Origin: Elusimicrobiota bacterium
GTDB lineage: Bacteria > Elusimicrobiota > Elusimicrobia > 2-02-FULL-39-32
Assembly: GCA_016180425.1 (NCBI GenBank)
Contig: JACPBF010000011.1
Span: 1-64,000 of the forward strand
Length of the DNA stretch: 64,000 nucleotides
Reading direction: 5' to 3'
Position numbers and translations under genes: made by a program. The notes below the pieces were generated by a model, which worked only from the letters and a program-made list of their open reading frames with translations, was not told the origin of the DNA and ran no database searches. This document shows, one piece after another, positions 42,150 through 60,422 of the stretch; positions within the stretch are counted from its first letter, which is position 1, and each line of letters opens with the position of its first letter.

Positions 42150-45100
42150 TTATGCAGAATAAGTGATGAGTTGAATCTTTTCCATCTCTATATTTAAGAT
42201 ATGGGTGAATGGTTCGGCGTCAATGCGAATGATCTCTTTAAGAACATGGTCTAAATTCCACTCATCTGCTCCGCTTAAGAGAATTAAAGAGGAACTAAAC
42301 AATTCATAAGTATCAATGAGTTCCTGAAAATCGAACTTGCCATTTTTCTTAGGCTGTATTAGAACTCTAAACTTTAGATTTTCAATTCCCTTTTCCATTA
42401 ACTCGCCTTTTATCTCCTCCTCTTTTAAAGAAGAACTCTCTGTGACCACTAAAAGTTCAATCTGCTTTTCTTCAAACAGATCGCTCAATTTTTTAATAAT
42501 GGTTGAAAACTTTTCAAGTTCCTGATAACTTACTGTAATTTTTATTGAATCTTTTTGATTGATAGTCTCTGGAACTTTTTCATTTAAGTTTCTAGCCAGC
42601 ATCTCAATGCTGCTTCCAACGTTTGAAGCAGAGCTAACTCCCCTAAATACAATTCCTCCCATCTTAAAAATCAAATTAGGCGCTTTAAGTAATAGCCAGT
42701 TTGGTTTTCTAAATAATGTGAATATATTTTCTGCGCTTTGGTTTACACCTAAGTGATTCCATTGCAATAGTGAGCTGGCAAAATTTATTTTTTCATTAAG
42801 TAAATTAATGGCGAATGGATTTTTATTAATTCTTGCTTCTATCGCCAAGCTGCTGCCAAGCCATTGAGAAATAGAATAATTAGATGATGGCTCTGTATGA
42901 AATGACTTTCTTAATGCCTGCTGGGTTTCTAAAGTCAGACGATCCCATGAGTTCTGCCCAAAATAAAAAGAAGAGGAGGTTATGGGCTCAAGAAAAATAG
43001 GCAAAGCTGAAATGGTTGCGCTCAGAATAGCATGTGCAGAAGATTCATCAGTTTTATCGCTGTTTTTATCTTCTTTGTCATCTTCTGGTTCTTCAGTATC
43101 ATCAAATAAAGGATTAAAGCCAATAGCATCCCAATCTTCTGGTTCATTTTCTTTAAACAAAACTACAAATGTCCGTTCTTTATTGATTTCAATGATTTGA
43201 AAGCCTGCGCTTTTAAACTCCTCATCAGTATAAAGGAAGCGTTTCTTTGTGCCATGAATGCTAAAAGAGCCTACTGGCGTAAGAGAAGAAATAGAGCGCA
43301 AAATCTTTATTCTTTTTTTCCTATTCGATATGTTATTTAAAAGACCGTAAGAAAAAGTTAAAGCGACTTTTCTTTTACCAATCAATTCTTCAACAGCTGT
43401 TTTAACATCTTCTTTTAATAATGTGCCGTGTATAATAGGAATTCCAAATTCCTTGGCAAATTCTACAAATCGTTTGTCTGTGTCAATGCCTAAAGCATTG
43501 ACACCTCCCAAACGGATTAGTTGCTCTACTGAAACGCCTGGACCAGCGTACAAATCTATGACTGTTTTCCCTTTAAGAGAACCAAATCTTCTGTATATTT
43601 CTCTTAAGAACTTCCATGCTCCTAAACTATTCCACATATCTTCTTTAACAAGAGAATCAAAATATTCACATGCCTCAGAAGTAAAAAATTGGCTAAGAAC
43701 AGCGCTTCTATATTTTGAACTTTCTACTTCATTTTTTAGATTCCTTCTTACCATGGGATCCGTAATATCAATCGCTGGGTTTCTCCTATAAGTTAAAACA
43801 TCCCCTTCATCATCAGTAGTAATCATAATAGGTCCCTTTATTGGGGCTCTAAACTCTGTCTCTGCTTCCTTATCAAGATAAGGAACTTCTTGCTTTACAT
43901 TCACAGGATCATTTATCTTCTGCTCTGGAGTTTCATTAGCCCAATCTATAAAGATTTGAAACGCATTTAAAAGTGTATGGGTTAGAGTGCCTGCTAAATA
44001 CGCATTAAAAAGCACAACCTCTTTGGAATGCCACTGAACAAAAGGATAAAAATATAGAATAACGATGCTATTCATGACAACGATAAAAATAGGAATAGCG
44101 CGTGAGCCAACAGGATGCAAAGCAATAAATCGCGCCCCCACAAGAATATTGAGCAAAAATATTAAAACACCAGTTGGAACAATGCCAAGCCCAGCCTGTA
44201 ATAACAGTTCTCCTGCTAAAAGCGGAGCTAAATTTAACCAAGCTCCCTCTGTAAAAAGAGGGGCTATCACAAGCCGATAAACAGGTTTGGGAGTTTTGGG
44301 AAAATGTTGCATCCACCAATCTTCAATAAAAGGAATAATCCCGGCTTTCAATCTCTTAGTTCTCTCCAACCCTATCCTTACTCTGCTCAATCTAATTAAT
44401 CCTTTGTACTTTTCTCTTTCTTGAGCAGTTCGTTTTGGATTGCGAAGAAGATCCATTAAGGCATGGTAATCATTCTCGCCCAAGGCTTCTTTTATCCTGC
44501 CTAAAACTATAGTTTCTTCTTTTTTGTCGCCAGCGCCTAAGATGCTAGAATCCGTAAAATCTTCTTCACCATGAATAGAGTCTTGAAGCAGATGAAGAAT
44601 AGGTGAATAATACCAGTGCATCTCTTTGCGAAGTTGATCTGGAACACTAGATAAATATTTAGCGATATCTAATTTAGATAAAAGCGTATTTGATTGAATT
44701 CTTATCTGACTAATGAGACGATTAAATCCTTCATATCCTTTATAATCTTGAAAAGGAAATCTTAAATCTGCAACCTTGATCTCTCCCTTATCATTTAGAC
44801 TCATTCCTGCTAATATTTTTGCATCATTAGTACCGCAGGATAATTTTGTCCAGAGGATTCTTTTATTACTTCTAATCGCTTTTGGTAAAACCAAATAAAG
44901 AATTGATAAAGACATTTTTGAAATATCTTTTGGAAAGACGGCGCTATAAAATTCCAACTGACCTTGATTATCTTTTCCATACATTCTTTCAATTTCGCTG
45001 ATTCCCATTCTCTCAACTTGATTTAATAAGAGCCTAATTTGAGCTGGGGCAATCGTGCTTCGCACAACAGACCTGATCTGAAACTTATCTAGAATTCCTT

Positions 45101-48100
45101 CAGCTTTAAGGGCATCAACAACTTTTTTTATACCGGCAAGATATCTTTCTCTCCTCAAAATTCTTGAAATTTGAGCGTGATCCTCAATCCCTAAAACATT
45201 TAAAAAAGCGATAAAAGCATTAATAGTATCTATATCTTTTGAACTTCCCAGAATCTGGCTAAGATGAGAACTGTTTGTAAACCCTAATTTGTAAAGGCGA
45301 TTGATGAATTGTCTAACCTCTTTTAAATTCATGGAACTACTCATGATTTGGCTCATGTGAGATTTATTCTCAATGGCTGCTTGAACTAAATAATTTATAA
45401 ATCTCTTAATTTGTTTTAAATCTCTTGGATGACTTACAATTAAGCTTATATGAGCTCCATCTGAAAAACCTTCTTGAACAAGGAACCTAATGGTTCTCAC
45501 AATAACTTCCGGACTCTTTGCATTATCCATGATCATGGCTATTTGATTGCCATTAAATACAAAACCATTATCAATTTGAAACAAAACCAAAAATTCCAAT
45601 AATCCTGCTCTTTTTGCCAACTTAATCCAAGATAACTCCATTATTCTTTTAATATCTGATCTTTTAAATAATGGTTCGCCATCCCGTTTGAATTCAGTAA
45701 GATAGTTCTCAATCTCTTCTTTATTTTTAGAACTATTGGAAAAAAAGGAACTCATTTCTTCCTTTATTCTCAGATGCGTTGCAGCATTGGTTTCTCTGTT
45801 TGTTAAGTTTGTTAAATCTAACAGTATAAAATCTCCTGCTTCCATGCTGTTATAACGGTCTTCCCCAAACTTTTCTGTAAAACTGTTCCAGCTTTCTCTA
45901 TGAACCGGTTTTACATTAATTTTTTTGCCATTCTTATATAAACCCATTTTGGAAATCACATTTTTATTTTCAAAATTAAAGTATTGGGTATTTTTAATGT
46001 TTTCAGGCAAAGCAATGCCAATGGCTCCTAATTCTTGAGCGACCTTGTGAAGTCCATTGAAAAGATTGATAAGCGTGTCTTCATCATTTAAAGAAGGTGA
46101 GTTAATCGTATCAATGGTTAAGACTTTTTCTCCATCCTCTCTTATTCCCATCATTAGACCAACATACCCTTTTAGTTCTTTGCCTTTATAGACAAAATAG
46201 TAAAGGGTATCTTCCTGCATGGCGCGAGTATGCGGGAATCCGCGTTCTCTATCAAATGAACAATCGCTAATTCCAGCTCGTCCTCTAAATAAACTTAAAA
46301 ACCCTTGCGGAATCAAACGGTAGGTGTCATTGCTGGTTGTTTCAATGTAAATAACTTTTTTTATTTCAGCATAAACTGCTTTTGAAAGTTCTTTAATGCT
46401 TTTGTCTAAAGATTTAATTTGTTTGACATTGAGGCCAACCGCATCGTTTGGCAAGTGATGGACAGAATCTTCATAAAAATTTTTGATCGCGATGATTCTA
46501 GTCTCAATATTGGAAGAGAGCATTTCACTCACAAGCTCGCTGTTTGATAGGGCTTCTGATAAGGTTAAATCCCTTAACAGGCTCACACATTTTTCCCTTA
46601 ACGTTTTGTCCCCCATTTTTTTATAGGCCAGTTGGAACGCGATTTTATATAAAAGTTTAAGGTCAATTCGTAATTCCACCGCCATATCTTCATTAGAAGG
46701 GTAGTGAACTCTATACCTCTCTCCTTCTCTAATTCCACCTTGCTTGATCGCTTGCTCGCGCTTAAAAATAAAATAGAGATTGCGCAAATTAAAATCTTTG
46801 TCTCCCTGAAAATCTTTTAGCCATTGTAGAGTGTCTGTTCGTTTTTCGATCTCCAATAACTCGTGGAGATGTTCATCTAAAATATTCGCGTTAATTTGGC
46901 TCGTGTCAATCTGTTTTGATTCTTTATCGCTGATTTCAATTGGTTTTAACCCTTTAGTTTTAGAGAAGAGAGCGCGAAAAACGCCAGGGACATCTTGATC
47001 ATATTCAATCACATCATCCATTCTTTCTACAAAATCTTTCCAGCTGATATGAATGCCATTGAAGCGGGTTCCAAGGAATGCCAGCCATACATTTTGCGGA
47101 AAGTGATAGTTAAAACCTTCGCGAATAATCTTTTCTGCTTTTCTCTTAAGAGCATCAATAAAATTTTTTGAATCTTGTGATTCTAAGTAGTCAGTTACTA
47201 GCTCTTCTTGATAAGGAAGGCTATTCGCCTTCCAAAGAAGATATTTTTGGTAGTCTTCCTCTAGCACTTTTCCTTCCCTAATATTAGAAGCAAACGTTTC
47301 ACCTAAAGCAATCACACCTATGAGGCGGCGCCATTCATCATCTTCTAAATATTTTTCTAGTTGAGAAGTTTCTTTCTTTTGCATGGTATAGAGGTAACCT
47401 AAAGCGATTGCGGCTGTTCTTCGAACAGAAAAATCAGGATCGGAAAGTCTTTCTTCAAGCAAAGTAAGATCTGGGATTTCTCCCCCTCTAATCATTACAA
47501 GGTAATGTTTTTTTAGTGAAAGGATGGCTCGGCATCTCGCTTCTTCATCATGTGATTTTAGGCTCTGTTCCGTACTCTTCAATTCTTTATCTTCCAATAT
47601 TGAACTTAATGAGGGAGTATCTTTCTTAAGCATGAAAGCAGCTTGAATTCTTTGAGTCACATCGTTTGCCATGCGCCGCACATCTATGTCTGGATCATCC
47701 AAAAAGCTTTCTAAATGTAAAATTCCTTTGATGATCTTTTTAGATAAAATTTTTGATTCTAATATATTCACTTCTGGATTTGCGCTATAAAGCATGGATT
47801 CATAAAGCACCATTGGCCAGGGGCCAGAGCCAACCGTGGCAATGGGTTTTAACCAATCTTGCTGGTTAAAATAAGATGTAGATCTTCCCCAAGAAATAAT
47901 CCGTATCTTTTTTTTCTGAGCCGTCTCTTTTAATTTATTAACCACAATTCCTAAAGTTTCATCATTAAAAGGGTTAAATAGATAAAATACGGTTCCATCG
48001 CTAAAATCGTAATCTCTTACATTTGAAGGAATAAATTCAACATTTTCTAATCCTAATTGATTTTTAACTCTATTGCTTTCAGCAACTCTTTCCAGCGATA

Positions 48101-51100
48101 TTTCAACTCCTTTTACTTTTCCTATTTTTGTGGTCATTGCCGCATAAAGCGGCAAACGGCCATAACCAGAACCTAAATCATAAAGAGTATCGGATGAGCT
48201 AAGGTTTAAGGCAGGAAGGAGTTCCCTGATTTTATGATAAGGTGTTCCTTCATAGGTCACCTGCTCCATTGCAAAACGATCTTGAAGAACTCTATAATTT
48301 GTAGTGGTTTCCACCCACTCAACATTCATATTCAAAATCCAATCCATGATTGGATCCGATAACATAAAAAACTGTTCAGAGCTTAAGCGAACCAATTTAT
48401 GAATAAGAGCAGTATCCGCAAGGATCCTTTGCTTAAGTTCTGTTTGCAATCTTTCTTGAAGTAAAGATAAAGGACCAAAATACGAGATCCTGGATCTTTC
48501 CACAAAATGTGAAAAATCTTCATGCTTAGCAAATAAAGAATTTAATTCTTCAGGGATTGAATTAGGCTCTGATGAATCTCTATATGGGTTTAATTCATTT
48601 AGATTGGAAATCATTACGTCAATAGGAAAAACTCTTCCTATCCTTTGATAAACAACTCGATTGATATGAGATAATCCAAACTCTTTCCATCTTAATTCTA
48701 TTCTTGACTTTAAAATTTCTACCTGATTTAAAAGAATAAAAAGATTAAAATCTTCTAGTTCAGTTTCATTAAGATCGTTTCCAATCAATGGTTCAACTTC
48801 ATCTAATTCTGTTAAGTATGAATTAAACGCTCTAGTCAAATCATCTTCAGAAAATTGGGAATTTTCTGGAGCGCTTAGATAGTTTGCCCACCACCAGTAC
48901 TCTTCAAAAAAGCTCTCAGCATCTAGAAAGTCCAGTAAATCAAAAAGAGCTAATTCCATAGGATTATTCAAGTTTCTATTTTCTTCTGAATACAATTTCT
49001 TAACCCATTCAACTTGTTTTAATCTACTGGGTTCAGAAAAAATTATAGCAGGGCTAAGATGAGACGGCAGGAAACGCTTGAGTGAATAAGGACTATTTTT
49101 TTCCAACCATTTAAATATTTCATCAATATTTTCGTTATATTCCTTATGGAGATGAATATTCCAGAAAATTCCGATTACTAAGAGAACGACATAAGTTATC
49201 GCGTTAACCACGAATGGTAATTCTAAGCCAAGCCAATTAAGAGTCAAAGAAAATAAAATAGCAGGAGCAATGGTTGCTCCTGCTAAAATTGAACCGACCA
49301 CCTGCAAATTGAAGCTTTCCCTTCCTTTGTGCGCTCCGCTAAACACATAGCCGCTGGCTAAAGACCATAAAACAGATGCGGCGATAATTATGAAATTATG
49401 ACCTGTTAAAAAACTACTGATCAAAACTAGAGAGCTAATAAAGCTGATTGTTTTAGAGTAGGGAGCTTCTCCTAGCTGATCGCGGATTCTCTTTATTCCT
49501 AACTTCTTCCCAACTGCGCGCGCGATCGCATTTGAAAAAATAGATAGAGCAGGTGTCTGATATACCCACTCCCAATAACGCGCTGTATCTTTATGCTTTT
49601 CCCCAAAAATAGAGCCTATGATTAACAATGGAGAATAAAGAATTTTTGGTATTTTTGATTGCATGTATCCAAACAATGAGCTGTCAATTGGCAGCATAAT
49701 AATAGGATCTTCATATTCAAACATAACATCTTCAGCTTGAAAAATATCATCTACATATAATGGGCTGCCTGCTTCTTGTACGCTTCTTAACCCTTCTGCG
49801 AATATCCCAGTATATATAAACCTGCCTTCACCGTTTGCAGTAATAATAAAAGGACAACCGGTTCTTATATCAGGATCGGACATATACCTTTCAGTTAGAT
49901 AACTAATAAAAGTTCTGGATAGATCGTATGGATAACAACAATCAAATATGATCTTAACTTCACTTAAGCTTCCTCTTTCTAAAAGAGTATCTACTAACTC
50001 GCTGTGGCTGATAGAATAAGGTTCATCAATAGGGCGTTTACCCTGATTGGTACTATTTTGAGAACTTACTTCTTTACTGTCCAAACTAAATCCCTCTCCA
50101 TCCCCATGCGCATGAATATAGATGGTCGTTGGACCTTTGCTTTGTCTGATCGCTTCCAAAGCATTCTCTTTTTGTTCAAATCCTTTGAATGTTTTGATCT
50201 GTTCTGGTTTAACGCCTGCCAGAATCTGCACCGTTTCCATACTCTCTTTTCTGTACTCTTGATCTTGATGCAAGATATTGATGGCAGTCACATTGGATCT
50301 ATAAATTAAATTATCTACATGTAAAGATAAAACTCTTCTAAAAACTAAAATCAAATCTAAACCTTTTTTAATGTTTTGTTTGGAAAAACGAAGATTAGAA
50401 AACGTTAAAAGCTCGTAAACCGCGTTAGCAACCGAATAAGCCTCGCTATTTGATGGATATTTTTCCATCCATGCTCTAAAATAATTATCAGTATAGATGC
50501 GCCAATGATGAAAGGGATGGCCTAATATTTTTTCCGGCAATGTTTTTATAACCGGGTATAATACGCTTCCATTTTCTAATTTTGGTTCTGCTTTTATTAT
50601 TTTTTTCATTAAGTTTGCGGCATATCGGTATTCTTCTGCTTCGTGTCTTTTTTGCATCATTAAGTACTCTAATGCGGAAAATATTGCTTTATTAAATTTT
50701 GGTCTTTTTTGAATTAAATTTTTAAAAGTATCTAATACTGCCATATAAGTTTGTGGGCGGAGGTCCTTAATTTTTAAAAGGTTGGATAAAAGCGATACGG
50801 TGGATGATTGGATAAGATCAGGTCTGGCTCTTGAAACTTCTTTAAAACAATCAGCAATGGGCTTAAGAAATTGACTGTGATGAGCAGATTCACTCTTTAG
50901 AATTCTTCTTGCATGAGATTCCAAAATTTTCATGTGGTTTGTCTGAAAAATTTTAGGCGCTTTTAAAACGATTTGTTTAATGAGAAAGAAGCCGTGTGGA
51001 TAGATGCGTTCGGAATTCTTTAAAAATTTTATAACTACTTCAACTAATCTTTCTAGTTCCACAAGATCAGAACAAAATTTTAAAATCCGAATAAAAGCGC

Positions 51101-54100
51101 CTAATGCCACGCCATAATGGGTTGTTGATTTGTCTTTATCCGCAAAATGTGCCTCTACATAATCTTTTCTCTGTAAAGATTGAATTAAAGATTCAACTGT
51201 TGATACCTGAATAAAGGAAGAACGATTTTCAGCAATGATATCAATAAACTCAGCCGCGCTTTTATAGACTTCATCTTCCTGGCCATTGGCGCGCAATATC
51301 TCTTCCTGTGTAGACAATAAATCGGGATTAAATAATAAATTGCCTCTTTTTTTAATGATTTCTAAAATAGCATGGTTAATATGACGAATTACATAACTTT
51401 CTAATCTCTTTTTTATCGCTGTATGAATAAAACTATTCAAGACAGAAAGAGTATTGGCAGTAATAAAATCTGGATGGATCTGGACAATAGCTTCAATCGC
51501 CTGCGCTGCGGCTGCATAGACAAAAGGTTCAAGCCCATCGTATGAAAAAACTCTTTCTAAAGCCCTAACAATCATTGGATCAAAAATTAGGTCTGGCCTA
51601 TGTTTTGCAATGGTTTCTAAAATATCGCATGCGGAGGAATAAAAAAGGCTGTCCATCCTACCTACCCAAAAAATATTGTCAGTATTGAGAATGTTCATCG
51701 CAACAATAACGAACAAGGATGAGATTCTATCCGGTCGTTTTTCAGCTATTGCTAAGCTAACAAGATCCTCAATCGCGGCAAATTCAAGAGAACTGAGGTT
51801 TTTTCTTTCAAGCAGAATTTCTAATGTTTCTCGAATGGATTCGCTAATCAAATGCGGCTGTTTCATCATAATCCACATCAATGATCTTATCGCCTGCTCA
51901 GAATTAATGTCGCTCAGTTCCCCGCGCCTTAATACATCTTCTAAAACTGAAACAAGGGATTGAGAAATTGCTAAAGGTTTTTTATTGTTAATTTCATGAA
52001 TGCTTGAGAATAAAGCGCGACCAAAATCATAACTTAAATCTTCTTGAAGAAAATATTCAAAAGCTTTCATGGCCTGCGCCATGCGCCTTAGATCAGATTC
52101 TTCTAATACAATTTTCTGTAATTTTTCTATTTCTCCCAGCTTGTAAAATTCTAATAGTTCGTTATCCCATTCGGTTGTATCAAATTGTATCGCAATGGAA
52201 TTTCTTATTTTTTTTCTAATTTTAACTTCCCATCCATAACCGGAATCAGAAGGAATAAACATGCGCCACCAGCGCATGGAATAGGACGATCCCCAATCAA
52301 CAAACTTTGAGCCTAATTTTTGTAAATGAGGCATTGAATCTATTGGTCTTTCATCCCCGTCAAAATCGCAAATAATAGCCATTCCATCTAATTTAACAGC
52401 TTCTGCAATGCGGGGAAGAAATTCCCCCCAACTTTTATGAATGTTCATCCCTGCTTTTTCGTAATAAAAATCAATGCCGGAATCTAAAATTTTATTTAAA
52501 AAATCATTGGCCTCTTTTTTATTGCCAATACTTTCAACATTAGAATTAATATAAACAATCGTATATTTACGATTTTTATTAGTGATGGGATGCGCCCAAT
52601 TGAAGCTTGATTTTGTATGTCCTTGATCTAGCTCAACCTCAATGGCATTCAAATCTACTCCCATGCTTTTAAGTTCAGCTGCAATTGCCCAATAAATGTT
52701 GTCAGGAGTATTTTGTAAAAAAGTGCCCTCTCCAAAACCCTTCAGACGTTTTTTGTAAGTGTACTCCTGGTCAGTATAAGCGGACTCAACTGTTTTAAAA
52801 TCCCATTCCCTTAAACAGGACTGTAATTTATTGGAATCCACTCTATTGTTTGTAACAAAATAGCCTGTGCCTACGTCTGTTGAAAGCAGAAAAGAAGAAA
52901 TATCAGCGCCTGCTCCGCCATAAACACCCACTAAATCTTTATGATCCGGGTTCACAATCTCACAAACTGACATTGCGTAATGAACATAGGGAAGTAAAAG
53001 AATCGAATACCAGTCTTTAATAACTTTTGGGTCAAACCCTGTAATGCGGCTAACAATTTTAGATAATTCGCGTTTCTTAAATCTCTTTGACTGAACTATT
53101 TTCTTATTTTTATTTAACCACTGAAAAAAATTGGACGGAACATGATCGTATTCTTGCTTAAATTGAGGAAGCAGAGCTTTAAAATCCTTACTTTCAAAAT
53201 AAGCTTTTATCAAGCCTGCAAGCTGAACTTGGGTTTCATCCCCTAAGTTTCTAGTTGGAGTCGGAAGCAAGTTATAGATTAATTTTAAATTTTTAATTAT
53301 TGTAAAATCTCGAGCCTCTTCTAACCATTTCGGATCCATTTTAGAAAGCGCAACAATTCTTGCAATTGTATATTCTTCTGCTTTTTCCGCAAATTTTTCT
53401 GGAGGGATATGAGCCATGACCATATCCGTTGCCACAAGATCCGCCAATGCCACTAAAGACAAATCCTCTGCTTTAACGCCGCTTGTTCTCTCTCTGGGTT
53501 TTGCAGCGGCAGTAATAGGTTGTTGTTGAGGTTGTTCTTTTTTTATTCTGATTGTTACATCCCAGCCGTAGTTAGATTTTGAGGGAATGATTTTTTTCCA
53601 CCAATCGAATATCTTTTTAGAGGAATTTTGTTTAAGTGAAACAAAATGATCTGATTCTGTATTAAGAAACGGTTCAGGATTGTGAATACCGCTTGATTGG
53701 GAATCATCTGTAATGGAATAGCCGCCCGCTCTAATTGCTTTTGCAATCCTAGACAAAAATTGACCCCATAAGTTATTTGTATCCTGTACAGCTTTTTGAT
53801 AGTAGATATCAATGCCTTTTTCAAGCGCAGCATTAAGCAAGGGGTCGGTTGTTTCAGGGCTGCCAAGCTTCTGCAACCGCTGCCCTATATAAGTAATTGA
53901 ATAAGTTCTAGGCTGATTGGTCCCTGGATAAACCCAGTCAAAAGTAATTTGGGTATGGCCATCCTTATTTTCAATTCTTACAGATTCTTTTCTAACTTCA
54001 ATTGTTTTTAGTTCTTGGACTATCGCTTTGTAGATCGCGCCCTTCTTTTTATCAAGAGTTCCGCCATTTCCAAAGCCATAAAGCCTTTTATCTTTAGCAT

Positions 54101-57100
54101 AATCATCATCAAATGTTATTGAATCCCATTGTTCCATCATATTTTTAAGTTGTTCAGCATCTACTTGATTTTGCGTAACAAAATAACTAATGGAAGCATT
54201 GACAGACAACAAAAATGTTGAAATATCAGCGCCAGCTCCGCCATATACCGCGACTAATGGGTTATGTTCAGGATTAACTGATTTTCTTACCTGCATGGCA
54301 TAGTAAACATAGGGAATAGAAAGTACCCCATCCCTGTCCTGAATGGATTCCAAACTAAAACCTGTAAGTTCTTCAAATAGAGCTCCAACATCATCTTCTC
54401 TGGGAGTATAATCCATTGGCAATTCAAAAGGATTTTTATTCCATTCATCATTCTGTTTAAACCAAAGATCTAATCTGCAAAAATTTTCAAAAATAAATGA
54501 AGAACCTTTTTCAAAATAGTCTTTCACAATTCCAACAAAATAATTTTTGTAAGAATCTCCCAAATAGATTTCAGCTGTTTCCATAGCCTTAAAAATAAGT
54601 TCCAGATCTTTATTATCCGTATATTGCGCAAATAATTTTCTATCCTTGCTGTTAAACCTAGATAAAATCTCCATACGAACTACCGCATATTTTTCTGCCT
54701 CTTTTATAAAATCTTCGGGGTTAACTCCATTTCTCCTCATATCAGCTAAAACCATGTCTGCAAAAACATCTAGCCCTTGGATAAACTGATTCTTTTTCTT
54801 AGCTGTAGGTTTTAATTGGGGTTTGCTACTCAATAATTCCTCATCTGAAATCATTGAAGATTTGAAAGTGATTGGATTGTTTTCTAATCTAACTTTATTC
54901 ACAGGATTTTTTATTCTTCTAGGAATTTTGATCTTAAGCTCTTTCCTAAAATTTCTTAATGTCAATTCATTAATTCCTAAACTTTGGGCTGTTTTAATAA
55001 AATTTCCTTTATGTTCAATTAATCTTTCAATGATCTTTCTTTTTAACTGGGGAAATAGTCCTTTCTCTTTAAAAAATTTCAAATACCCTCCACCGCGTCC
55101 AGCAAGCTTGACACCTAATTCCCTTCGAGCTTTAGACAAAACCCAATTATGCTTATTAAGTATCTTCATGTTAGAATCATCTGAGGGATCATCCGATTGA
55201 TGGTCTATTTTATTTTTATCTGTAACAATAAGTCCATGTAAAAAAATGCTAAATTTAGCGCCATTCAATTTACTATTTTGATCTATAACATTACTGGCAT
55301 GGATCCATGCAGGCTGATCTTTAATGCTATGAAGTTGTATGAGATGCCAAACTTCTGCTAAACCTAAACCGGTGCCGCCTTTTCGCCCAGATGCATTTAA
55401 GAAAAATAATTTTTGCCGATCTGGTTCTTGACTATCTGGAACATCCAAAAGCCCGGCATTATAAATACCTCCGGCATCATCTGTTATTTCAAAAATAGGT
55501 TTATCTCCAATCCATTTTATTTGAACGCTAATCTGAAGTGGTAAAGGTGGTGGAACATTGTCTTTAGCTTCGGCTTGTAATTTCTCCTGCCATACCTGCC
55601 TTGTGTTCATAAACAAGGTTCTAAAAACATTTAGAATCTTTCTCCTGTCCCCAACTATTTCAATAAGGTAATTTTCAAAACCTTCAAGCTTCAAAATAAT
55701 TTCATTGCCTCTTTTCGCATATCTTTCCCTAAATGATTCATTAAATACACTCTCCAACGCTTCCTCAATCACTTCCTTAATTCCAAATGTACTTTTCCGT
55801 TCCTCTATATTCCCATCAATAAAAGAAATTAAATCCTCTATAATTTCAATGGAACGGGTATAATAAAGTTGAAGGGTGGAATAGTTTGGAAGGCCGATCA
55901 AAATTTTGTTATTAAGACGCGGGCTAATTTCGTTTTTTAAAAGACCGATTAAAATTTCTAAAACTTCTCTATACTCAAGCAGTTCATGATCTTGAAAAAT
56001 CAAACTGGCGCGTTCCGTATAAAGCTCCAACCGATCCCTGATCCCTTGAAGACGATCTTCTATTTCCAAACTCAAACGATCTGGCTCATCTAATTTTGTC
56101 AGCGCTTTACAAAGAACAGACAATTTAATAGGGAGTTCGTTCCACGAGCCATGTTTAATGGAACGAACTGCGATTTCTGACCGTTCTCGATCATCTTGTA
56201 AATTGAATTTAGAGCGCCTGGTTGGAAGCATCCCGGAGACAAACTGGTAATAGGTTAACCATTTTTTTGTTTCCTCAAGAATTTCTTTTGGTATAAACCT
56301 AAACCCCTCTCGATAAATATCCAGCGGTGTTCTTGCACCCATGCTTACAAGTCCGCTTAAAATAAAAAAGTTCCTTGCAAATGTTTGAAGCGACTGAAGT
56401 TCTTGCGTATTTTCATAAACCGCAGTCACTTGATCCTGTGGGGAAAGAGCAAAAATAGTTTGCAAAACATTAATAAAATATTGATTTGCTTTAAGAAGTT
56501 GACCCAAATATTTTGCTTGAAGCTCTTTAAATTTTTCATCGTATAGTCTTGCCACGTTTCTATTATTTATGAATTCCGGCGTTCCAGATATTTTGCTTTG
56601 AGGACCAGTGTCTTTTTGTTGAAGGAGAGCCCATAATTCACTTAAATCTACGGGAGAATTCAATTCATGAACTTTTTGGATATGGGAATTGATTTGATCT
56701 GGGAAAGAAGTGATGGCGGCCATTGCTAGGGGCAAATCATATCTAGGCGCAAGTTGAGCGTTATAGATAATGCCATGAATAATAATAACTATGAGGGTTG
56801 CAAGGAAAATGTCCGCAATATTTCCAAAAGGGGCTAAATAGAGAGTTAAAAGATAAATGGTTCGGAGAGCTATGGCTGTTAAAAGAAGAATTTTTTTTGC
56901 TCTTGCCAGGGCTTGGGGTTCATCCATTCCTAAAGGAGGAGCGTGAGTGAGAACGCCTTCAGAGGTTAAATAAATCGGTTTTTTATGGGTTTTCATAAAA
57001 ACAAACAAACTAATCATAGCTCCCATTAAAGCGCCAATCATGGGAGTTCCCAAAAATAGATGATTCCATATTTCTCCTATCCCGCTCACTAAAAGAGCGC

Positions 57101-57395
57101 TGTAAAAAATCTCCTCAAAACCTCTTAAACCTGCTGTCTGTCTGCTAGACAAAACCAATCCCTTTTTGGGTAAAGTAGATGGATAATCTGAAAAAATTTT
57201 CTGAACTTCTATTTTTTTCATCATCCGGCTTTGTACTTTTGACCATTCGCCTTTTAAACCGGCAGATTCAAAAGCTAACTCCATTTCAGAATCAGGATTA
57301 AACCCGTATTTTGCAATAGGACGTTGGATTCGACGAACGATGGCGGACTTTTTCGTCCTCAAAAAGTTCGACCGCAGCCAACGCTGCGCTCTCAC
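42150..57395 (-). CDS. giant multidomain protein (5,081 residues)
   Basis: No single function is recognised. Domains by residue: CPBP-like membrane module (about 86-230), GHKL ATPase (532-722), Fis-like HTH (742-828), two tandem methyltransferase-like copies (869-1287, 1311-1731), HEAT-like solenoid (1736-2369), caspase-like protease (2389-2579), a second membrane module (2643-2756), methyltransferase (3032-3202), HEAT repeats (3209-3385), GNAT-like domain (3684-3862), six 31-residue repeats (3950-4135), a third membrane module (4365-4490) and another methyltransferase (4536-4762), then an unrecognised end. The frame is open throughout 15.2 kb, so it is under selection. The GTG start overlaps the upstream stop (GTGA) but lies in an inverted-repeat element; the first about 37 codons may be non-native and ATG at 57284 is an alternative. 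Giant genes of this kind are known in Omnitrophota. Confidence 0.85.
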   Translation of the reverse strand: MRAQRWLRSNFLRTKKSAIVRRIQRPIAKYGFNPDSEMELAFESAGLKGEWSKVQSRMMKKIEVQKIFSDYPSTLPKKGLVLSSRQTAGLRGFEEIFYSALLVSGIGEIWNHLFLGTPMIGALMGAMISLFVFMKTHKKPIYLTSEGVLTHAPPLGMDEPQALARAKKILLLTAIALRTIYLLTLYLAPFGNIADIFLATLIVIIIHGIIYNAQLAPRYDLPLAMAAITSFPDQINSHIQKVHELNSPVDLSELWALLQQKDTGPQSKISGTPEFINNRNVARLYDEKFKELQAKYLGQLLKANQYFINVLQTIFALSPQDQVTAVYENTQELQSLQTFARNFFILSGLVSMGARTPLDIYREGFRFIPKEILEETKKWLTYYQFVSGMLPTRRSKFNLQDDRERSEIAVRSIKHGSWNELPIKLSVLCKALTKLDEPDRLSLEIEDRLQGIRDRLELYTERASLIFQDHELLEYREVLEILIGLLKNEISPRLNNKILIGLPNYSTLQLYYTRSIEIIEDLISFIDGNIEERKSTFGIKEVIEEALESVFNESFRERYAKRGNEIILKLEGFENYLIEIVGDRRKILNVFRTLFMNTRQVWQEKLQAEAKDNVPPPLPLQISVQIKWIGDKPIFEITDDAGGIYNAGLLDVPDSQEPDRQKLFFLNASGRKGGTGLGLAEVWHLIQLHSIKDQPAWIHASNVIDQNSKLNGAKFSIFLHGLIVTDKNKIDHQSDDPSDDSNMKILNKHNWVLSKARRELGVKLAGRGGGYLKFFKEKGLFPQLKRKIIERLIEHKGNFIKTAQSLGINELTLRNFRKELKIKIPRRIKNPVNKVRLENNPITFKSSMISDEELLSSKPQLKPTAKKKNQFIQGLDVFADMVLADMRRNGVNPEDFIKEAEKYAVVRMEILSRFNSKDRKLFAQYTDNKDLELIFKAMETAEIYLGDSYKNYFVGIVKDYFEKGSSFIFENFCRLDLWFKQNDEWNKNPFELPMDYTPREDDVGALFEELTGFSLESIQDRDGVLSIPYVYYAMQVRKSVNPEHNPLVAVYGGAGADISTFLLSVNASISYFVTQNQVDAEQLKNMMEQWDSITFDDDYAKDKRLYGFGNGGTLDKKKGAIYKAIVQELKTIEVRKESVRIENKDGHTQITFDWVYPGTNQPRTYSITYIGQRLQKLGSPETTDPLLNAALEKGIDIYYQKAVQDTNNLWGQFLSRIAKAIRAGGYSITDDSQSSGIHNPEPFLNTESDHFVSLKQNSSKKIFDWWKKIIPSKSNYGWDVTIRIKKEQPQQQPITAAAKPRERTSGVKAEDLSLVALADLVATDMVMAHIPPEKFAEKAEEYTIARIVALSKMDPKWLEEARDFTIIKNLKLIYNLLPTPTRNLGDETQVQLAGLIKAYFESKDFKALLPQFKQEYDHVPSNFFQWLNKNKKIVQSKRFKKRELSKIVSRITGFDPKVIKDWYSILLLPYVHYAMSVCEIVNPDHKDLVGVYGGAGADISSFLLSTDVGTGYFVTNNRVDSNKLQSCLREWDFKTVESAYTDQEYTYKKRLKGFGEGTFLQNTPDNIYWAIAAELKSMGVDLNAIEVELDQGHTKSSFNWAHPITNKNRKYTIVYINSNVESIGNKKEANDFLNKILDSGIDFYYEKAGMNIHKSWGEFLPRIAEAVKLDGMAIICDFDGDERPIDSMPHLQKLGSKFVDWGSSYSMRWWRMFIPSDSGYGWEVKIRKKIRNSIAIQFDTTEWDNELLEFYKLGEIEKLQKIVLEESDLRRMAQAMKAFEYFLQEDLSYDFGRALFSSIHEINNKKPLAISQSLVSVLEDVLRRGELSDINSEQAIRSLMWIMMKQPHLISESIRETLEILLERKNLSSLEFAAIEDLVSLAIAEKRPDRISSLFVIVAMNILNTDNIFWVGRMDSLFYSSACDILETIAKHRPDLIFDPMIVRALERVFSYDGLEPFVYAAAAQAIEAIVQIHPDFITANTLSVLNSFIHTAIKKRLESYVIRHINHAILEIIKKRGNLLFNPDLLSTQEEILRANGQEDEVYKSAAEFIDIIAENRSSFIQVSTVESLIQSLQRKDYVEAHFADKDKSTTHYGVALGAFIRILKFCSDLVELERLVEVVIKFLKNSERIYPHGFFLIKQIVLKAPKIFQTNHMKILESHARRILKSESAHHSQFLKPIADCFKEVSRARPDLIQSSTVSLLSNLLKIKDLRPQTYMAVLDTFKNLIQKRPKFNKAIFSALEYLMMQKRHEAEEYRYAANLMKKIIKAEPKLENGSVLYPVIKTLPEKILGHPFHHWRIYTDNYFRAWMEKYPSNSEAYSVANAVYELLTFSNLRFSKQNIKKGLDLILVFRRVLSLHVDNLIYRSNVTAINILHQDQEYRKESMETVQILAGVKPEQIKTFKGFEQKENALEAIRQSKGPTTIYIHAHGDGEGFSLDSKEVSSQNSTNQGKRPIDEPYSISHSELVDTLLERGSLSEVKIIFDCCYPYDLSRTFISYLTERYMSDPDIRTGCPFIITANGEGRFIYTGIFAEGLRSVQEAGSPLYVDDIFQAEDVMFEYEDPIIMLPIDSSLFGYMQSKIPKILYSPLLIIGSIFGEKHKDTARYWEWVYQTPALSIFSNAIARAVGKKLGIKRIRDQLGEAPYSKTISFISSLVLISSFLTGHNFIIIAASVLWSLASGYVFSGAHKGRESFNLQVVGSILAGATIAPAILFSLTLNWLGLELPFVVNAITYVVLLVIGIFWNIHLHKEYNENIDEIFKWLEKNSPYSLKRFLPSHLSPAIIFSEPSRLKQVEWVKKLYSEENRNLNNPMELALFDLLDFLDAESFFEEYWWWANYLSAPENSQFSEDDLTRAFNSYLTELDEVEPLIGNDLNETELEDFNLFILLNQVEILKSRIELRWKEFGLSHINRVVYQRIGRVFPIDVMISNLNELNPYRDSSEPNSIPEELNSLFAKHEDFSHFVERSRISYFGPLSLLQERLQTELKQRILADTALIHKLVRLSSEQFFMLSDPIMDWILNMNVEWVETTTNYRVLQDRFAMEQVTYEGTPYHKIRELLPALNLSSSDTLYDLGSGYGRLPLYAAMTTKIGKVKGVEISLERVAESNRVKNQLGLENVEFIPSNVRDYDFSDGTVFYLFNPFNDETLGIVVNKLKETAQKKKIRIISWGRSTSYFNQQDWLKPIATVGSGPWPMVLYESMLYSANPEVNILESKILSKKIIKGILHLESFLDDPDIDVRRMANDVTQRIQAAFMLKKDTPSLSSILEDKELKSTEQSLKSHDEEARCRAILSLKKHYLVMIRGGEIPDLTLLEERLSDPDFSVRRTAAIALGYLYTMQKKETSQLEKYLEDDEWRRLIGVIALGETFASNIREGKVLEEDYQKYLLWKANSLPYQEELVTDYLESQDSKNFIDALKRKAEKIIREGFNYHFPQNVWLAFLGTRFNGIHISWKDFVERMDDVIEYDQDVPGVFRALFSKTKGLKPIEISDKESKQIDTSQINANILDEHLHELLEIEKRTDTLQWLKDFQGDKDFNLRNLYFIFKREQAIKQGGIREGERYRVHYPSNEDMAVELRIDLKLLYKIAFQLAYKKMGDKTLREKCVSLLRDLTLSEALSNSELVSEMLSSNIETRIIAIKNFYEDSVHHLPNDAVGLNVKQIKSLDKSIKELSKAVYAEIKKVIYIETTSNDTYRLIPQGFLSLFRGRAGISDCSFDRERGFPHTRAMQEDTLYYFVYKGKELKGYVGLMMGIREDGEKVLTIDTINSPSLNDEDTLINLFNGLHKVAQELGAIGIALPENIKNTQYFNFENKNVISKMGLYKNGKKINVKPVHRESWNSFTEKFGEDRYNSMEAGDFILLDLTNLTNRETNAATHLRIKEEMSSFFSNSSKNKEEIENYLTEFKRDGEPLFKRSDIKRIMELSWIKLAKRAGLLEFLVLFQIDNGFVFNGNQIAMIMDNAKSPEVIVRTIRFLVQEGFSDGAHISLIVSHPRDLKQIKRFINYLVQAAIENKSHMSQIMSSSMNLKEVRQFINRLYKLGFTNSSHLSQILGSSKDIDTINAFIAFLNVLGIEDHAQISRILRRERYLAGIKKVVDALKAEGILDKFQIRSVVRSTIAPAQIRLLLNQVERMGISEIERMYGKDNQGQLEFYSAVFPKDISKMSLSILYLVLPKAIRSNKRILWTKLSCGTNDAKILAGMSLNDKGEIKVADLRFPFQDYKGYEGFNRLISQIRIQSNTLLSKLDIAKYLSSVPDQLRKEMHWYYSPILHLLQDSIHGEEDFTDSSILGAGDKKEETIVLGRIKEALGENDYHALMDLLRNPKRTAQEREKYKGLIRLSRVRIGLERTKRLKAGIIPFIEDWWMQHFPKTPKPVYRLVIAPLFTEGAWLNLAPLLAGELLLQAGLGIVPTGVLIFLLNILVGARFIALHPVGSRAIPIFIVVMNSIVILYFYPFVQWHSKEVVLFNAYLAGTLTHTLLNAFQIFIDWANETPEQKINDPVNVKQEVPYLDKEAETEFRAPIKGPIMITTDDEGDVLTYRRNPAIDITDPMVRRNLKNEVESSKYRSAVLSQFFTSEACEYFDSLVKEDMWNSLGAWKFLREIYRRFGSLKGKTVIDLYAGPGVSVEQLIRLGGVNALGIDTDKRFVEFAKEFGIPIIHGTLLKEDVKTAVEELIGKRKVALTFSYGLLNNISNRKKRIKILRSISSLTPVGSFSIHGTKKRFLYTDEEFKSAGFQIIEINKERTFVVLFKENEPEDWDAIGFNPLFDDTEEPEDDKEDKNSDKTDESSAHAILSATISALPIFLEPITSSSFYFGQNSWDRLTLETQQALRKSFHTEPSSNYSISQWLGSSLAIEARINKNPFAINLLNEKINFASSLLQWNHLGVNQSAENIFTLFRKPNWLLLKAPNLIFKMGGIVFRGVSSASNVGSSIEMLARNLNEKVPETINQKDSIKITVSYQELEKFSTIIKKLSDLFEEKQIELLVVTESSSLKEEEIKGELMEKGIENLKFRVLIQPKKNGKFDFQELIDTYELFSSSLILLSGADEWNLDHVLKEIIRIDAEPFTHILNIEMEKIQLITYSA
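43110..43790 (-). other. C-terminal methyltransferase domain of the giant protein
   Basis: KTVIDLYAGPGVSVEQLIRL gives motif I of a class I SAM-dependent methyltransferase, GIDTDKRFVEFA is motif II with an acidic ribose ligand, and SYGLLNN follows at the expected place. An acidic linker (about residues 4765-4790) comes after it. The substrate is unknown. Confidence 0.65.
43926..44303 (-). other. third CPBP-like membrane module of the giant protein
   Basis: About four membrane helices carry FIALH (Phe4423 to His4427) and HTLLN (His4473 to Asn4477), which match motifs 2 (FxxxH) and 3 (HxxxN) of CPBP intramembrane proteases. The Glu-Glu of motif 1 is reduced to one Glu (Glu4383 in FTEGAW), so activity is doubtful. 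Confidence 0.5.
44991..45548 (-). other. six tandem 31-residue helical repeats in the giant protein
   Basis: Residues 3950-4135 divide into six units of exactly 31 residues. Clear examples are SHMSQIMSSSMNLKEVRQFI and SHLSQILGSSKDIDTINAFI, each followed by a second helix ending LxxLG(F/I). The two-helix layout with a short variable loop after I(L/M) recalls TAL-effector-like and mTERF-like repeats. Confidence 0.75.
45810..46345 (-). other. GNAT-like domain of the giant protein
   Basis: Residues about 3684-3862 contain FRGRAGISDCSFDRERGFPH, YYFVYKGKELKGYVGLMMG, VLTIDTINSP and LGAIGIALPE in the strand-helix order of an N-acetyltransferase-like fold. The acetyl-CoA loop is not clear, so the assignment is tentative. 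Confidence 0.4.
47790..48300 (-). other. central methyltransferase domain of the giant protein
   Basis: DTLYDLGSGYGRLPLYAAM is a clear motif I of a SAM-dependent methyltransferase, followed by VKGVEISLERVAES, FIPSNVRDYDF and FYLFNPFND. All core motifs seem intact, unlike the tandem copies nearer the N-terminus. Confidence 0.75.
49130..49470 (-). other. second CPBP-like membrane module of the giant protein
   Basis: Four hydrophobic segments (residues about 2645-2755) include VFSGAH with Phe2685 to His2689, the FxxxH spacing shared with the other two membrane modules. Motifs 1 and 3 are degenerate. Confidence 0.4.
49660..50230 (-). other. caspase-like protease domain of the giant protein
   Basis: IYIHAHGDGEG gives a catalytic His (2428 or 2430) at the end of a hydrophobic strand, and 56-59 residues later KIIFDCCYPYD gives Cys2486/Cys2487. 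This spacing and context match the caspase/CHAT/C13-like fold. A later strand, PFIITANGEGRFIYTG, is like the substrate-pocket strand of these enzymes. Confidence 0.7.
52205..53465 (-). other. second copy of the tandem methyltransferase-like domain
   Basis: Residues about 1311-1731. Starts ALADLVATDMVMAHIPPEKF, contains LVGVYGGAGADISSFLLSTD, GIDFYYEKAG and WGEFLPRIAEAVK, and ends MRWWRMFIPSDSGYGWEVKI. Each string has a counterpart in the copy just upstream. Confidence 0.75.
53535..54790 (-). other. first copy of the tandem methyltransferase-like domain
   Basis: Residues about 869-1287. FADMVLADMRRNGVNPEDF, LVAVYGGAGADISTFLLSVN, GIDIYYQKAV, WGQFLSRIAKAIR and IFDWWKKIIPSKSNYGWDVT align one by one with the second copy. 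The glycine-rich GGAGADIS loop follows a hydrophobic strand as in Rossmann methyltransferases. Confidence 0.75.
54910..55170 (-). other. Fis-like helix-turn-helix of the giant protein
   Basis: The strings KIIERLIEHKGNFIKTAQSL and GINELTLRNFRKELKI read as the helix-turn-helix found at the end of NtrC-type regulators. It directly follows the GHKL ATPase, so the N-terminal quarter resembles a fused sensor-regulator. Confidence 0.65.
55230..55802 (-). other. GHKL (histidine-kinase-type) ATPase domain of the giant protein
   Basis: RKILNVFRTLFMNTRQVW is the N box, EITDDAGGI the G1 box and ASGRKGGTGLGLAEV the F/G2 boxes (about residues 635-680). A dimerisation helix with a phosphorylatable His upstream is not obvious. 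Confidence 0.75.
56706..57140 (-). other. first CPBP-like membrane module of the giant protein
   Basis: Residues about 86-230 contain four hydrophobic segments. EEIFYS (Glu94, Glu95), FVFMKTH (Phe133 to His137) and IIIHGIIYN (His207) line up with CPBP motifs 1-3, although the Arg of motif 1 is missing and the motif 3 spacing is one residue long. Confidence 0.45.
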
Positions 57396-57466
57396 TTTTT
57401 TCGTCGCGTCGAAAAAGCCTCGCCCTCGCTCGTCTCCTCCGACACGCCTATTGCAAAATACGGGTT
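57301..57466. repeat. 166-bp inverted-repeat (MITE-like) element at the giant-gene junction
   Basis: The ends AACCCGTATTTTGCAATAGG (57301-57320) and its exact reverse complement (57447-57466) bound an imperfect palindrome whose arms continue for about 55 bases. Inside is a small CGCAGC/GCTGCG hairpin. The core is much richer in G+C than the flanks. It encodes the last about 25 residues of the phosphoesterase and the first about 32 of the giant protein. There is no transposase in it. Confidence 0.75.
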
Positions 57467-60199
57467 AAATAATGCATGATTCTGATCAGCCTCATTTGAA
57501 AAAATTAGTCCTGTATGTTGGGCCGCGATTAAACATTTCTCAAGGATTAATCTTCTCCAATAAAATATGCGAGTATCCTTTCCATTATATTTTTCTGCCG
57601 CAAATTCATGATTCAAGAGACAAGCCGCCAACCTTGAAGCATGAGTCAATGAATCGTCTTTTTCTAAAATCAATTGATGCGGCTGAAATCTTGAATGTTC
57701 TGGATCAATAAAAATATTATTTGAATTTGTTAAATCAAGCGTGTAACCAGCATCCTGAATTTTTTTTAAGTCTATGGCTAAGTTGTCATAAGCGCTTTGG
57801 GCCATTCCTGCGGCAATCTCAAGATGCTTTTCATATAGGGAATCTGAAGTTGGACTGGGCATAAATGAAAGGGAAGAGACACTGTAAGGAACTCCTAACA
57901 ATCTCTTATGAATAATCACACTACCCAGATGAGCAACTGCCTGACCAAAATTACTGTTTGGAAAAGGGTCCTGCACAGGTTTAAAATCATCAAATTTAAT
58001 ATCCCGTGGAAAATGAAGTTCATAATCCTCTAAGTCCTCAATTTTATAGACTTGACCTTCTGAAGATTGTCTAACCATATTTTGGAGCTTAATGTTCTTA
58101 ATAATAAAGTCAAGCAATCCCTTAGCCCCAATTTTTTCCGCAGCTCCCATAAAAGCGCGATAAACTTTAACTGAGTAATGTTCAAAAATTTCATCTTCTA
58201 AGCCAAACTCATTCTCCCCATAGGTCACTTTGACAGTATGCGCTAAGTTTCTATCAAATAGAAATTCTAGAACAGCCTCAGCCCCTCCCTCTGCTGACTG
58301 ACGAGGAGTTGTATTGATATTGTAAATTTTAGGCATGATTTGAGCGACTTTACCTTGAACACCTCCATTTTTCCCTACACCAATTGGAGTTTGGCAAGTA
58401 TGTCCATACACAAAGTATTCAATTCCTAAATTTTTCATCCACTCTTTTACGCGTTTAGAATTAGCGACCCACTCCCTATCCTGTATGGTCATCAACTCCC
58501 CTTTGGCGCTAGAAGCGATCTCTTCAAATGTTCTGGCATAAAAATCTGGAGCTGCATGCGCTGCCAAAACATTTTCATTGACCCTTACCGCATAAGGCAT
58601 AGAATGGTTCATCCATCTTAGAATGTTATTCAATTCTGGATACCGTTCATGAATTTCTCTTAAAAGTTCTTCTCTATTTTGAACCGCATACCCTAACTCA
58701 GCATAAGGATCTTCTTTCCAGTTTGGAACTAAATGTTCTCTGCCAAGCAATTTTTTTAAAGTATTCAGTCCACTCATATCTTTGTCATCATTTAACCAAT
58801 GAGTCCAGATCAACTCTCGCGCGTAGCGATCTCTTCCTTCAAGGCTATTAATAAACATGTACTCATGGTTTCCCATCACTGCGATCACTTTTCCTCCTTG
58901 AGCGCTTGCTTTGTTTTGAAGACTATAAACAAACTCTAATACCTCCCATGGATTTGGCCCGCCGTCTATTAAGTCTCCATCAAAGATAAGAACTGCTGAA
59001 CCTGCAATCCAATCTCCTTTGCTGTCAATAAATCCAGATTTTTCAAGGGCATTTAACATCTGCAAATAATTTCCTTGCACATCCCCCATAATTCCCAGTC
59101 TTTCAACTCCTGCAACATCCATGAGCCGAACTTTATTAGATCCATCTGTGATATGTTTTGTGTTTATTTTTGTTTGGTGAGCCGGTTCTAACTCCGATTC
59201 TCCATCAGAAGCGTGAATCTCGTTCAGTTGAGCTGGTTTGCCCTCTGGTTTGTCCTCAGGTTTGTTCCCTTTACCGCGTATTAAATTGGATAAAAGAAGC
59301 CTTTCTGGCAACCGTACCTTCTTTATTGAAAAATAGGGGTAAAAAACAAGAGCTGGAAAATAGTTTTGATGTTTAGTGATCAGACTGTATAGATTCAATA
59401 AAATTAATGCAATCACCGTAAAATAAAGATTCATAGCTGGGAAAGAAGCCACAGACATGGAAGATTGTTCCGTTATTACTGGAGCGCAGCCCTGAGTTAA
59501 AAGAGTAGTGAGATTTAAAAGCAAGAGAATAGATGCTGCTTTTACCCAAGGTTCAAAACTTTTTTTCTTTATCTGGTCTTGTTTTTTAAAAGAGCTCTTT
59601 GCATGAAGATTGGACATAAGCTGATTCGGTTTAAAATTTAATCTTGATCCCTCTTTCTCAAGCTCTACAAGAAAGTTAGGCCATAAGGATAACCCTCTTC
59701 TTATATCTTTAAGCTCCCAATTTTCATTTACTTTGAATTCATTTTCTGTAAGTAATTTTTTGATCTCAAAATCTTTTTCTACCTTAGCCTCAAAGTTCCC
59801 ATCTTTAGAAAATATCAGCGCCAGATTGGTTTGAAAATGCTTTCCCCTGATTGCGGCTAAAACATAAATTTTTTCATCTCTTACGCTAAAAATCGGATTT
59901 GCGAAAAGGAGTCTGTCAGCAAAAGACTGAAATGGAACTTTAAGCTCATTCTCTTTTTTACTTATTGTTTCTAATTCATGGATATATTGTTCGTAAAATA
60001 AATGGAACTCTTTTGGATTCTGAACCAATTTTTCTGCAAGATGCTGCACAACTAAAGTAAGAGGATTTTTTGTGAATTGGCTCAAGGCGCGTAACTGATC
60101 ATACTTTTGCCTTTCATAAATTTTAGCTTGGGCAAAACTTGGGAGCGCCATGCTAAAAAGCAAAGAAGCTGCCAGAACAATGGAAAACAATTTTTTCAT
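57392..60199 (-). CDS. exported PPP-type metallophosphoesterase, multidomain
   Basis: From ATG 60199 the protein is 935 residues and begins with a signal peptide (MKKLFSIVLAASLLFSMALP, cleavage near SFAQA). After a 190-residue unknown domain come two hydrophobic segments (about 220-275). The phosphoesterase domain has GDVQGNY (Asp373), FDGDLIDGG (about 406-414), GNHEYMF (about 441), HAAPDF (about 546) and YGHT (about 596): the metal ligands of the PPP/calcineurin family, with two variants (GDVQG for GDxHG, DGG for DRG). The C-terminal 300 residues are unrecognised; YTLDLTNSNNIFID faintly recalls the catalytic loop of kinase-like folds. The last 25 residues derive from the inverted-repeat element. 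The frame extends to 60262 but lacks a start there that suits a signal peptide. Confidence 0.8.
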   Translation of the reverse strand: MKKLFSIVLAASLLFSMALPSFAQAKIYERQKYDQLRALSQFTKNPLTLVVQHLAEKLVQNPKEFHLFYEQYIHELETISKKENELKVPFQSFADRLLFANPIFSVRDEKIYVLAAIRGKHFQTNLALIFSKDGNFEAKVEKDFEIKKLLTENEFKVNENWELKDIRRGLSLWPNFLVELEKEGSRLNFKPNQLMSNLHAKSSFKKQDQIKKKSFEPWVKAASILLLLNLTTLLTQGCAPVITEQSSMSVASFPAMNLYFTVIALILLNLYSLITKHQNYFPALVFYPYFSIKKVRLPERLLLSNLIRGKGNKPEDKPEGKPAQLNEIHASDGESELEPAHQTKINTKHITDGSNKVRLMDVAGVERLGIMGDVQGNYLQMLNALEKSGFIDSKGDWIAGSAVLIFDGDLIDGGPNPWEVLEFVYSLQNKASAQGGKVIAVMGNHEYMFINSLEGRDRYARELIWTHWLNDDKDMSGLNTLKKLLGREHLVPNWKEDPYAELGYAVQNREELLREIHERYPELNNILRWMNHSMPYAVRVNENVLAAHAAPDFYARTFEEIASSAKGELMTIQDREWVANSKRVKEWMKNLGIEYFVYGHTCQTPIGVGKNGGVQGKVAQIMPKIYNINTTPRQSAEGGAEAVLEFLFDRNLAHTVKVTYGENEFGLEDEIFEHYSVKVYRAFMGAAEKIGAKGLLDFIIKNIKLQNMVRQSSEGQVYKIEDLEDYELHFPRDIKFDDFKPVQDPFPNSNFGQAVAHLGSVIIHKRLLGVPYSVSSLSFMPSPTSDSLYEKHLEIAAGMAQSAYDNLAIDLKKIQDAGYTLDLTNSNNIFIDPEHSRFQPHQLILEKDDSLTHASRLAACLLNHEFAAEKYNGKDTRIFYWRRLILEKCLIAAQHTGLIFSNEADQNHALFNPYFAIGVSEETSEGEAFSTRRKK

Positions 60200-60280: not shown

Positions 60281-60422
60281 ATTATACGGTAAAATGGGTC
60301 ATTTGATCTTCAACTTTTTGTGACATTTTTGTAACAATTTTGTAACGGAAAAAAGCGTTACAAAAAATGTTACAAATTTGTTACAAAAAGTTTAAGAATA
60401 GTTAGAGGATAGTAGGTATAAT
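60281..60422. promoter_or_regulatory. mirror-symmetric divergent promoter/operator array
   Basis: Six heptamers of the type TTGTAAC/GTTACAA lie at 60318, 60329, 60340 (TTGT(G/A)AC) and 60357, 60369, 60380 (GTTACAA). Within each block they repeat every 11-12 bases with AT-rich 4-5 base gaps, as in PhoB/OmpR-type sites. TATAAT boxes at 60281-60286 (minus strand) and 60417-60422 (plus strand) are equally far from the centre near 60351.5. Neither has a good -35 box, which suits an activator-dependent promoter pair. Confidence 0.7.

Follow-up and report, generated by a model that had tools for sequence, protein, structure and literature searches.

Two head-to-head promoters with OmpR/PhoB-type direct repeats, probably part of a family-wide regulon of giant exported proteins in Elusimicrobiota

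The divergent region and its two genes

The window analysed here is a stretch of 64,000 nucleotides on contig C19 of a 2.6-Mb draft genome from the Elusimicrobiota (G000), and the region at 60281-60422 lies between two divergent genes for exported proteins (Table 1). The leftward gene opens with a 956-aa part that matches, at 90% identity, the beginning of a 6,108-aa frame of the sister species G001; where G001 has this single frame, the window has an overlap at 57392-57395 that splits the giant into 956 and 5,081 aa, the result of a frameshift, a programmed frame change or an assembly error. Pfam assigns calcineurin-like phosphoesterase and methyltransferase domains to the left giant. A preliminary description of the region had named a phosphatase among the controlled genes: what Pfam finds is the phosphoesterase domain, in the N-terminal part of a giant exported protein. 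For the rightward gene, an alternative start is possible at 60460, with AAGG upstream.

The same description had proposed a mirror-symmetric divergent promoter with six heptamers phased at 11 bp. The coordinates of all six are exact, the two TATAAT boxes lie on opposite strands as described, and the paired heptamers are centred on 60351.5 or 60352. The left-arm units, which read TTGT(G/A)AC on the forward strand, follow each other at steps of 11 and 11 bp; the uniform phasing fails in the right arm, where the GTTACAA units are correctly placed but the steps are 12 and 11 bp. Three degenerate repeats (Table 1) had been missed. The six heptamers fall within 69 bp (eight if overlapping matches on the opposite strand are counted), whereas no other 69-bp segment of the window holds more than two, and 200 windows simulated with an order-3 Markov model never gave more than four; the cluster is far beyond chance.

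A strong inverted repeat or hairpin is also found in the region (z = -8.9). Readings of it as a terminator or an RNA hairpin were rejected, given that there is no T-run beside it and that it lies upstream of both predicted starts; it would therefore not be transcribed from these promoters. A scan with the sigma-70 consensus recognised neither promoter of the window, as expected for promoters without a -35 element.

Table 1. Promoter elements and target genes of the divergent region (positions in the window).
Feature	Position	Strand	Remarks
Left giant gene, remainder: 5,081-aa frame overlapping the next entry	42150..57395	-
Left target: exported protein, calcineurin-like phosphoesterase domain, N-terminal part of giant gene	57392..60199	-	ATG at 60199
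-10 TATAAT, leftward promoter	60281..60286	-	20 nt from end of GTTGAAGA; kept in sister species
Degenerate third repeat GTTGAAG, left arm, -35 region	60308..60314	-	GTTTAAG in sister species
Half-site GTCACAA, left arm, promoter-proximal	60318..60324	-
Half-site GTTACAA, left arm, middle	60329..60335	-
Half-site GTTACAA, left arm, outermost (extra upstream unit)	60340..60346	-
Half-site GTTACAA, right arm, outermost	60357..60363	+	12 bp from next
Half-site GTTACAA, right arm, middle	60369..60375	+
Half-site GTTACAA, right arm, promoter-proximal	60380..60386	+
Degenerate third repeat GTTTAAG, right arm, -35 region	60390..60396	+	GTTGAAG in sister species
Weak fourth repeat GTTAGAG	60401..60407	+	9 bp before -10; GTT here in 18/37 genomic copies
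-10 TATAAT, rightward promoter	60417..60422	+	19 nt after GTTTAAGA
Right target: exported M6 (immune inhibitor A-like) metallopeptidase, 1,087 aa	60430..63693	+

One promoter form in the genome and the family

Regulon counts were obtained from pattern searches and sequence stretches, and 398 kb of unselected stretches served as background. The genome scan suggested in the preliminary description finds the heptamer pair recurring before genes: GTNACAA-N4-GTNACAA, with at most one mismatch, has 62 matches in G000 compared with 14 for the reversed control. The 12-bp step, searched as GTTACAA-N5-GTTACAA, is not enriched in this genome (24 matches versus 57 for the reversed control), and the right arm of the window is in this respect an outlier genome-wide. 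The short core TNACAANNNGTTNRAGA with one mismatch allowed stays at noise level (97 versus 91); the discriminating queries were only the exact core or a 29-bp pattern with at most three mismatches, and the latter occurs at 41 places in G000.

Alignment of the genomic copies yields a long promoter form, GTnACAA-N4-GTTACAA-N3-GTTnAAGA followed by a TATAMT -10, with unit steps of 11, 10 and, where a further unit is present, 11 bp. The aligned copies share GTnACAAAAAtGTTACAAAAAGTTnAAGA, which is often extended by a third unit at 11 bp on the upstream side and by AAAGTTT on the downstream side. TATAMT starts 19-20 nt past GTTnAAGA in 32 of the 37 G000 copies, and 21 nt past it in two more. Both arms of the window match the long form, one per strand; the copies elsewhere in the genome are mostly single-arm and gene-oriented, at a constant distance to the -10. 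A position weight matrix built from the 37 copies scores these at 30-51 bits, and its best score in the 398 kb of box-blind G000 DNA (147 ORFs of at least 300 aa) is 12.8.

Across nine genomes of the family, the 29-bp pattern has 41, 42, 13, 28, 28, 12, 3, 11 and 8 matches, and its reversed version has none. Seven promoter pairs from two species of the genus were compared: identity is highest in the -10 (97%) and the box (94%), and lower in the spacer (80%), the downstream sequence (63%) and the upstream sequence (52%). The heptamer pattern is present in orthologous regions, the check that the preliminary description had set; G001 retains the divergent region in full, with all six heptamers, a 28-bp piece of the leader being absent and the variable base of GTTnAAGA swapped on both sides. 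A box also stands at the start of the left gene's orthologues in genera g4 and g5. No box accompanies the row of genes that contains the M6 gene of G004 (g4), so confirmation of the right arm is limited to this genus. Neither of the two refuting outcomes named in the preliminary description occurred: conservation in orthologous regions and recurrence before genes across the genome support a divergent promoter with the PhoB/PhoP-type (OmpR-family) direct-repeat layout that had been proposed. In the open-access literature that we searched, no promoter of this kind is described for Elusimicrobiota; the promoter family is real, conserved and, as far as that literature goes, previously undescribed.

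Genes behind the boxes

Where enough sequence is available, the box is in most cases followed by a giant frame as its first or second gene. The sizes include 5,061, 4,751, 5,040, 3,901, 4,333, >5,896, 3,327 and 2,306 aa, and further 5,477, 2,571, 2,775, 4,131, >6,565, 5,253, 4,022 and 5,781 aa; overall, the boxed giants extend from 1,509 to >6,565 aa and carry N-terminal export signals, most of them starting with a common signal type, e.g., MIQFWIEKRNRNWLQITAGLVVISFLFTTVSAPFAQA. Five giant frames searched against Pfam gave only methyltransferase or NHL matches, or nothing. Many targets are paralogues, and their promoters may have been copied along with them.

Not every boxed gene is a giant; among the others are genes for a single-domain response regulator, for a LacI-type regulator and for small exported proteins. 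The box before the LacI-type gene (L047, C22:83667 of G000, minus strand) raises the possibility of a second layer in the network. A 122-aa single-domain response regulator is found shortly downstream of the box at L060 (C34:19872 of G000, plus strand) and at L107 in G001, and another of 122 aa follows the box at L119 in G003. At L019, L053, L112, L113 and L319, in three genomes of the family, the boxes precede a second, small exported family of about 250-305 aa, whose N-terminus reads HFSGLNNGFT or similar.

Many boxes of G000 stand near contig ends (C3:757, C4:3586, C5:158766, C6:20061, C9:118, C14:17564, C16:5457, C17:232, C24:3335, C37:33854 and C43:55839), as if giant genes or their common 5' parts break the assembly. 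Five stretches on the minus strand of C22:93995-146392 (L359, L309, L360, L310 and L361) are all open in one frame and join gaplessly; the resulting frame, 52.4 kb or about 17,400 codons, continues past the end of the contig, so that the assembly contains neither its start nor its promoter.

The candidate regulator and the mode of control

Three OmpR-type wHTH (Trans_reg_C) proteins were found in G000, all of which read as receiver-type response regulators; one heads the pho-pst operon and one lies in a signalling cluster. The gene at C3:35680-36378 starts about 10 bp downstream of a triple box, and an OmpR-type wHTH regulator is in this way genetically linked to the operator. Its orthologue in G001 has a box within about 10 bp of the start, those in G003 and G006 have one likewise placed, and that in G008 a degenerate one; the other two wHTH genes have no box in the promoters checked. 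Because the box adjoins the regulator's own start codon, as it does in related genera, C3:35680-36378 is the likely regulator of the box promoters, and the box at this gene may allow feedback on its own expression. The protein is a member of the OmpR/PhoB group, and among solved proteins RegX3 is closest to it in sequence; a scan of named genomes with it returned mainly general OmpR-family paralogues. The informative match was in the Elusimicrobia MAG JAHFCA01 ("Elusimicrobia bacterium isolate nzgw210"), in which the regulator fragment reads the same as in G004; this puts the family in the Elusimicrobiota.

The promoters combine features of OmpR/PhoB operators: 7-bp half-sites in direct repeat at 11-bp steps, and a fixed placement in the -35 region before the -10 (19-21 nt in 34 of 37 copies). 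We consider it probable that the window holds two head-to-head promoters with operators of this type, members of a family-wide giant-gene regulon of about 40 promoters, with C3:35680-36378 as the probable regulator. Each arm would be an operator of 11-bp-phased direct repeats for an OmpR/PhoB-type response regulator, with the strong GTTACAA half-sites lying between about -70 and -45, and with in-phase degenerate repeats (GTTnAAG, then GTTT) that would take the place of a -35 and end 9-10 bp before TATAAT. Regulator dimers would probably occupy the strong upstream units first and assist the binding of another dimer at the weak ones, where contact with sigma region 4 is possible. Such cooperative class II activation fits the promoters because the -10 distance is fixed, a TTGACA -35 is lacking and the repeats run from strong to weak. 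In the window, the site would drive the giant gene to the left and the exported M6 peptidase to the right, and since the arms stand back to back, one signal would switch both.

The regulon could be as described and its regulator another one, either C3:14399-15064 or a factor outside the OmpR family, with the box at C3:35680 serving as the promoter of the divergent neighbour. The box does point away from the regulator and towards the divergent gene in G000, G003 and G006, and no clear orthologue of C3:35680 was found in G005 and G007, two assemblies (80% and 73% complete) that have boxes. The partner across the box, however, varies between genera (a giant gene, a CheY-like gene or a small ORF), whereas the contact of box and regulator persists, and no box lies close to the C3:14399 gene; we regard another regulator as rather unlikely. 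A repressor, which by covering both -35 regions would shut off the divergent pair, is less probable again: the repeats do cover the -35 region, and the inverted pair could support looping, but the fixed space of 19-20 nt holds no TTGACA-like -35 at the usual distance, so that the promoters look activator-dependent, and the strong units lie upstream of -45. That the hairpin is the functional part of a mobile or repetitive element (MITE- or REP-like) with no regulatory role is barely credible. The strong inverted repeat and the roughly 40 arm copies per genome would agree with it, but the copies are mostly single-arm, oriented to genes at a fixed -10 distance and absent from the 398 kb of other DNA, and the hairpin's position ahead of both predicted starts also speaks against it.

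The preliminary description had noted that the phosphatase would fit a phosphate response, and this does not hold: the targets are not phosphate genes and the promoters of the pst-pho operon are without a box. The operon in G000 reads phoB-phoR-porin-pstS-pstC-pstA-pstB-pstB-phoU (names read from translations); no box was found in the promoters of phoB, the porin gene, pstS and phoU, where the best matrix score is below -23 bits, compared with 30-51 bits for real sites.

The Pho box of PhoB is placed over the -35 region. In E. coli its units, each a 7-bp half-site plus about four bp of lower conservation, recur at 11-bp intervals (PMC2648988), the same 7+4-bp direct-repeat layout as in the box promoters; one boxed giant gene, moreover, lies directly downstream of phoU. 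Both points would favour binding of the repeats by PhoB (C43:7318-7989), with phosphate starvation inducing the phosphatase and the peptidase. Against this, the half-site is GTTACAA and not CTGTCAT, the third repeat is degenerate and 10 bp away, the targets are giant exported proteins whose "phosphatase" is just a calcineurin-like domain, the pst-linked regulator has no box, and the linked regulator on C3 falls below the cut-off of the PhoB model TIGR02154 (197 bits, cut-off 296). A true Pho box is thus very improbable; the box promoter would work in the manner of a Pho-type operator, yet it is not a Pho box.

Other operators share parts of the design. KdpE binds two AT-rich TTTA(T/C)A direct repeats at kdpFABC, with a 5-bp gap and an 11-bp step (PMC3264566), and many boxes here contain TTTACAA; unlike in that system, no kdp genes are among the targets examined, and the candidate regulator scores 134 bits against a KdpE cut-off of 325. 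The cyanobacterial HLR1, bound by the OmpR-type RpaB, is a direct repeat with a TTACAA core (PMC6331805), as are the half-sites here; its repeats, however, are about 9-10 bp apart and serve light-response genes, whereas the step here is 11 bp, and against RpaB the candidate reaches 153 bits (cut-off 330). In Streptomyces the SARP AfsR binds the afs box as an OmpR-like wHTH dimer on 11-bp direct repeats that overlap the -35, the last repeat lying 8 bp before the -10, and engages sigma region 4 (PMC10936776). The box promoters likewise carry 11-bp direct repeats over the -35 region, but actinobacterial SARPs are not receiver-domain regulators, and the three wHTH proteins here are receiver-type.

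Elusimicrobiota rank among the bacteria with the most proteins of more than 5,000 aa, and the survey that noted these proteins gives them no functional category (PMC11573180); what makes this promoter family interesting is its link with giant exported proteins. As judged from the sequences, what we describe is a putative family-wide regulon of giant proteins, itself undescribed and of a known regulatory kind. The common promoter suggests that many giants of the family are expressed together by one regulator, and argues that the huge frames are real, regulated genes. With slightly less than even confidence, we suggest that a dedicated two-component system switches most of the family's giant exported proteome jointly, in which case dozens of dissimilar giants would be a coordinated apparatus for one life stage or condition. 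Learning what activates the regulator would tell when the giants are made, and the box is a sequence tag by which more members of the regulon can be found.

In 138 other genomes of the class, the 29-bp pattern has two matches in total. A diverged relative of the promoter was seen in a genome of another family (L127, G033), upstream of a frame that holds MNTLEPHIYRFSFKKTIALL; it reads ATTTACGGAAATGTTACAACTTCTTAAGATGAACTTAAGATAG and then TTTATAT, with 11-bp CTTAAGAT repeats. Given this relative, the promoter architecture may be older than the family.
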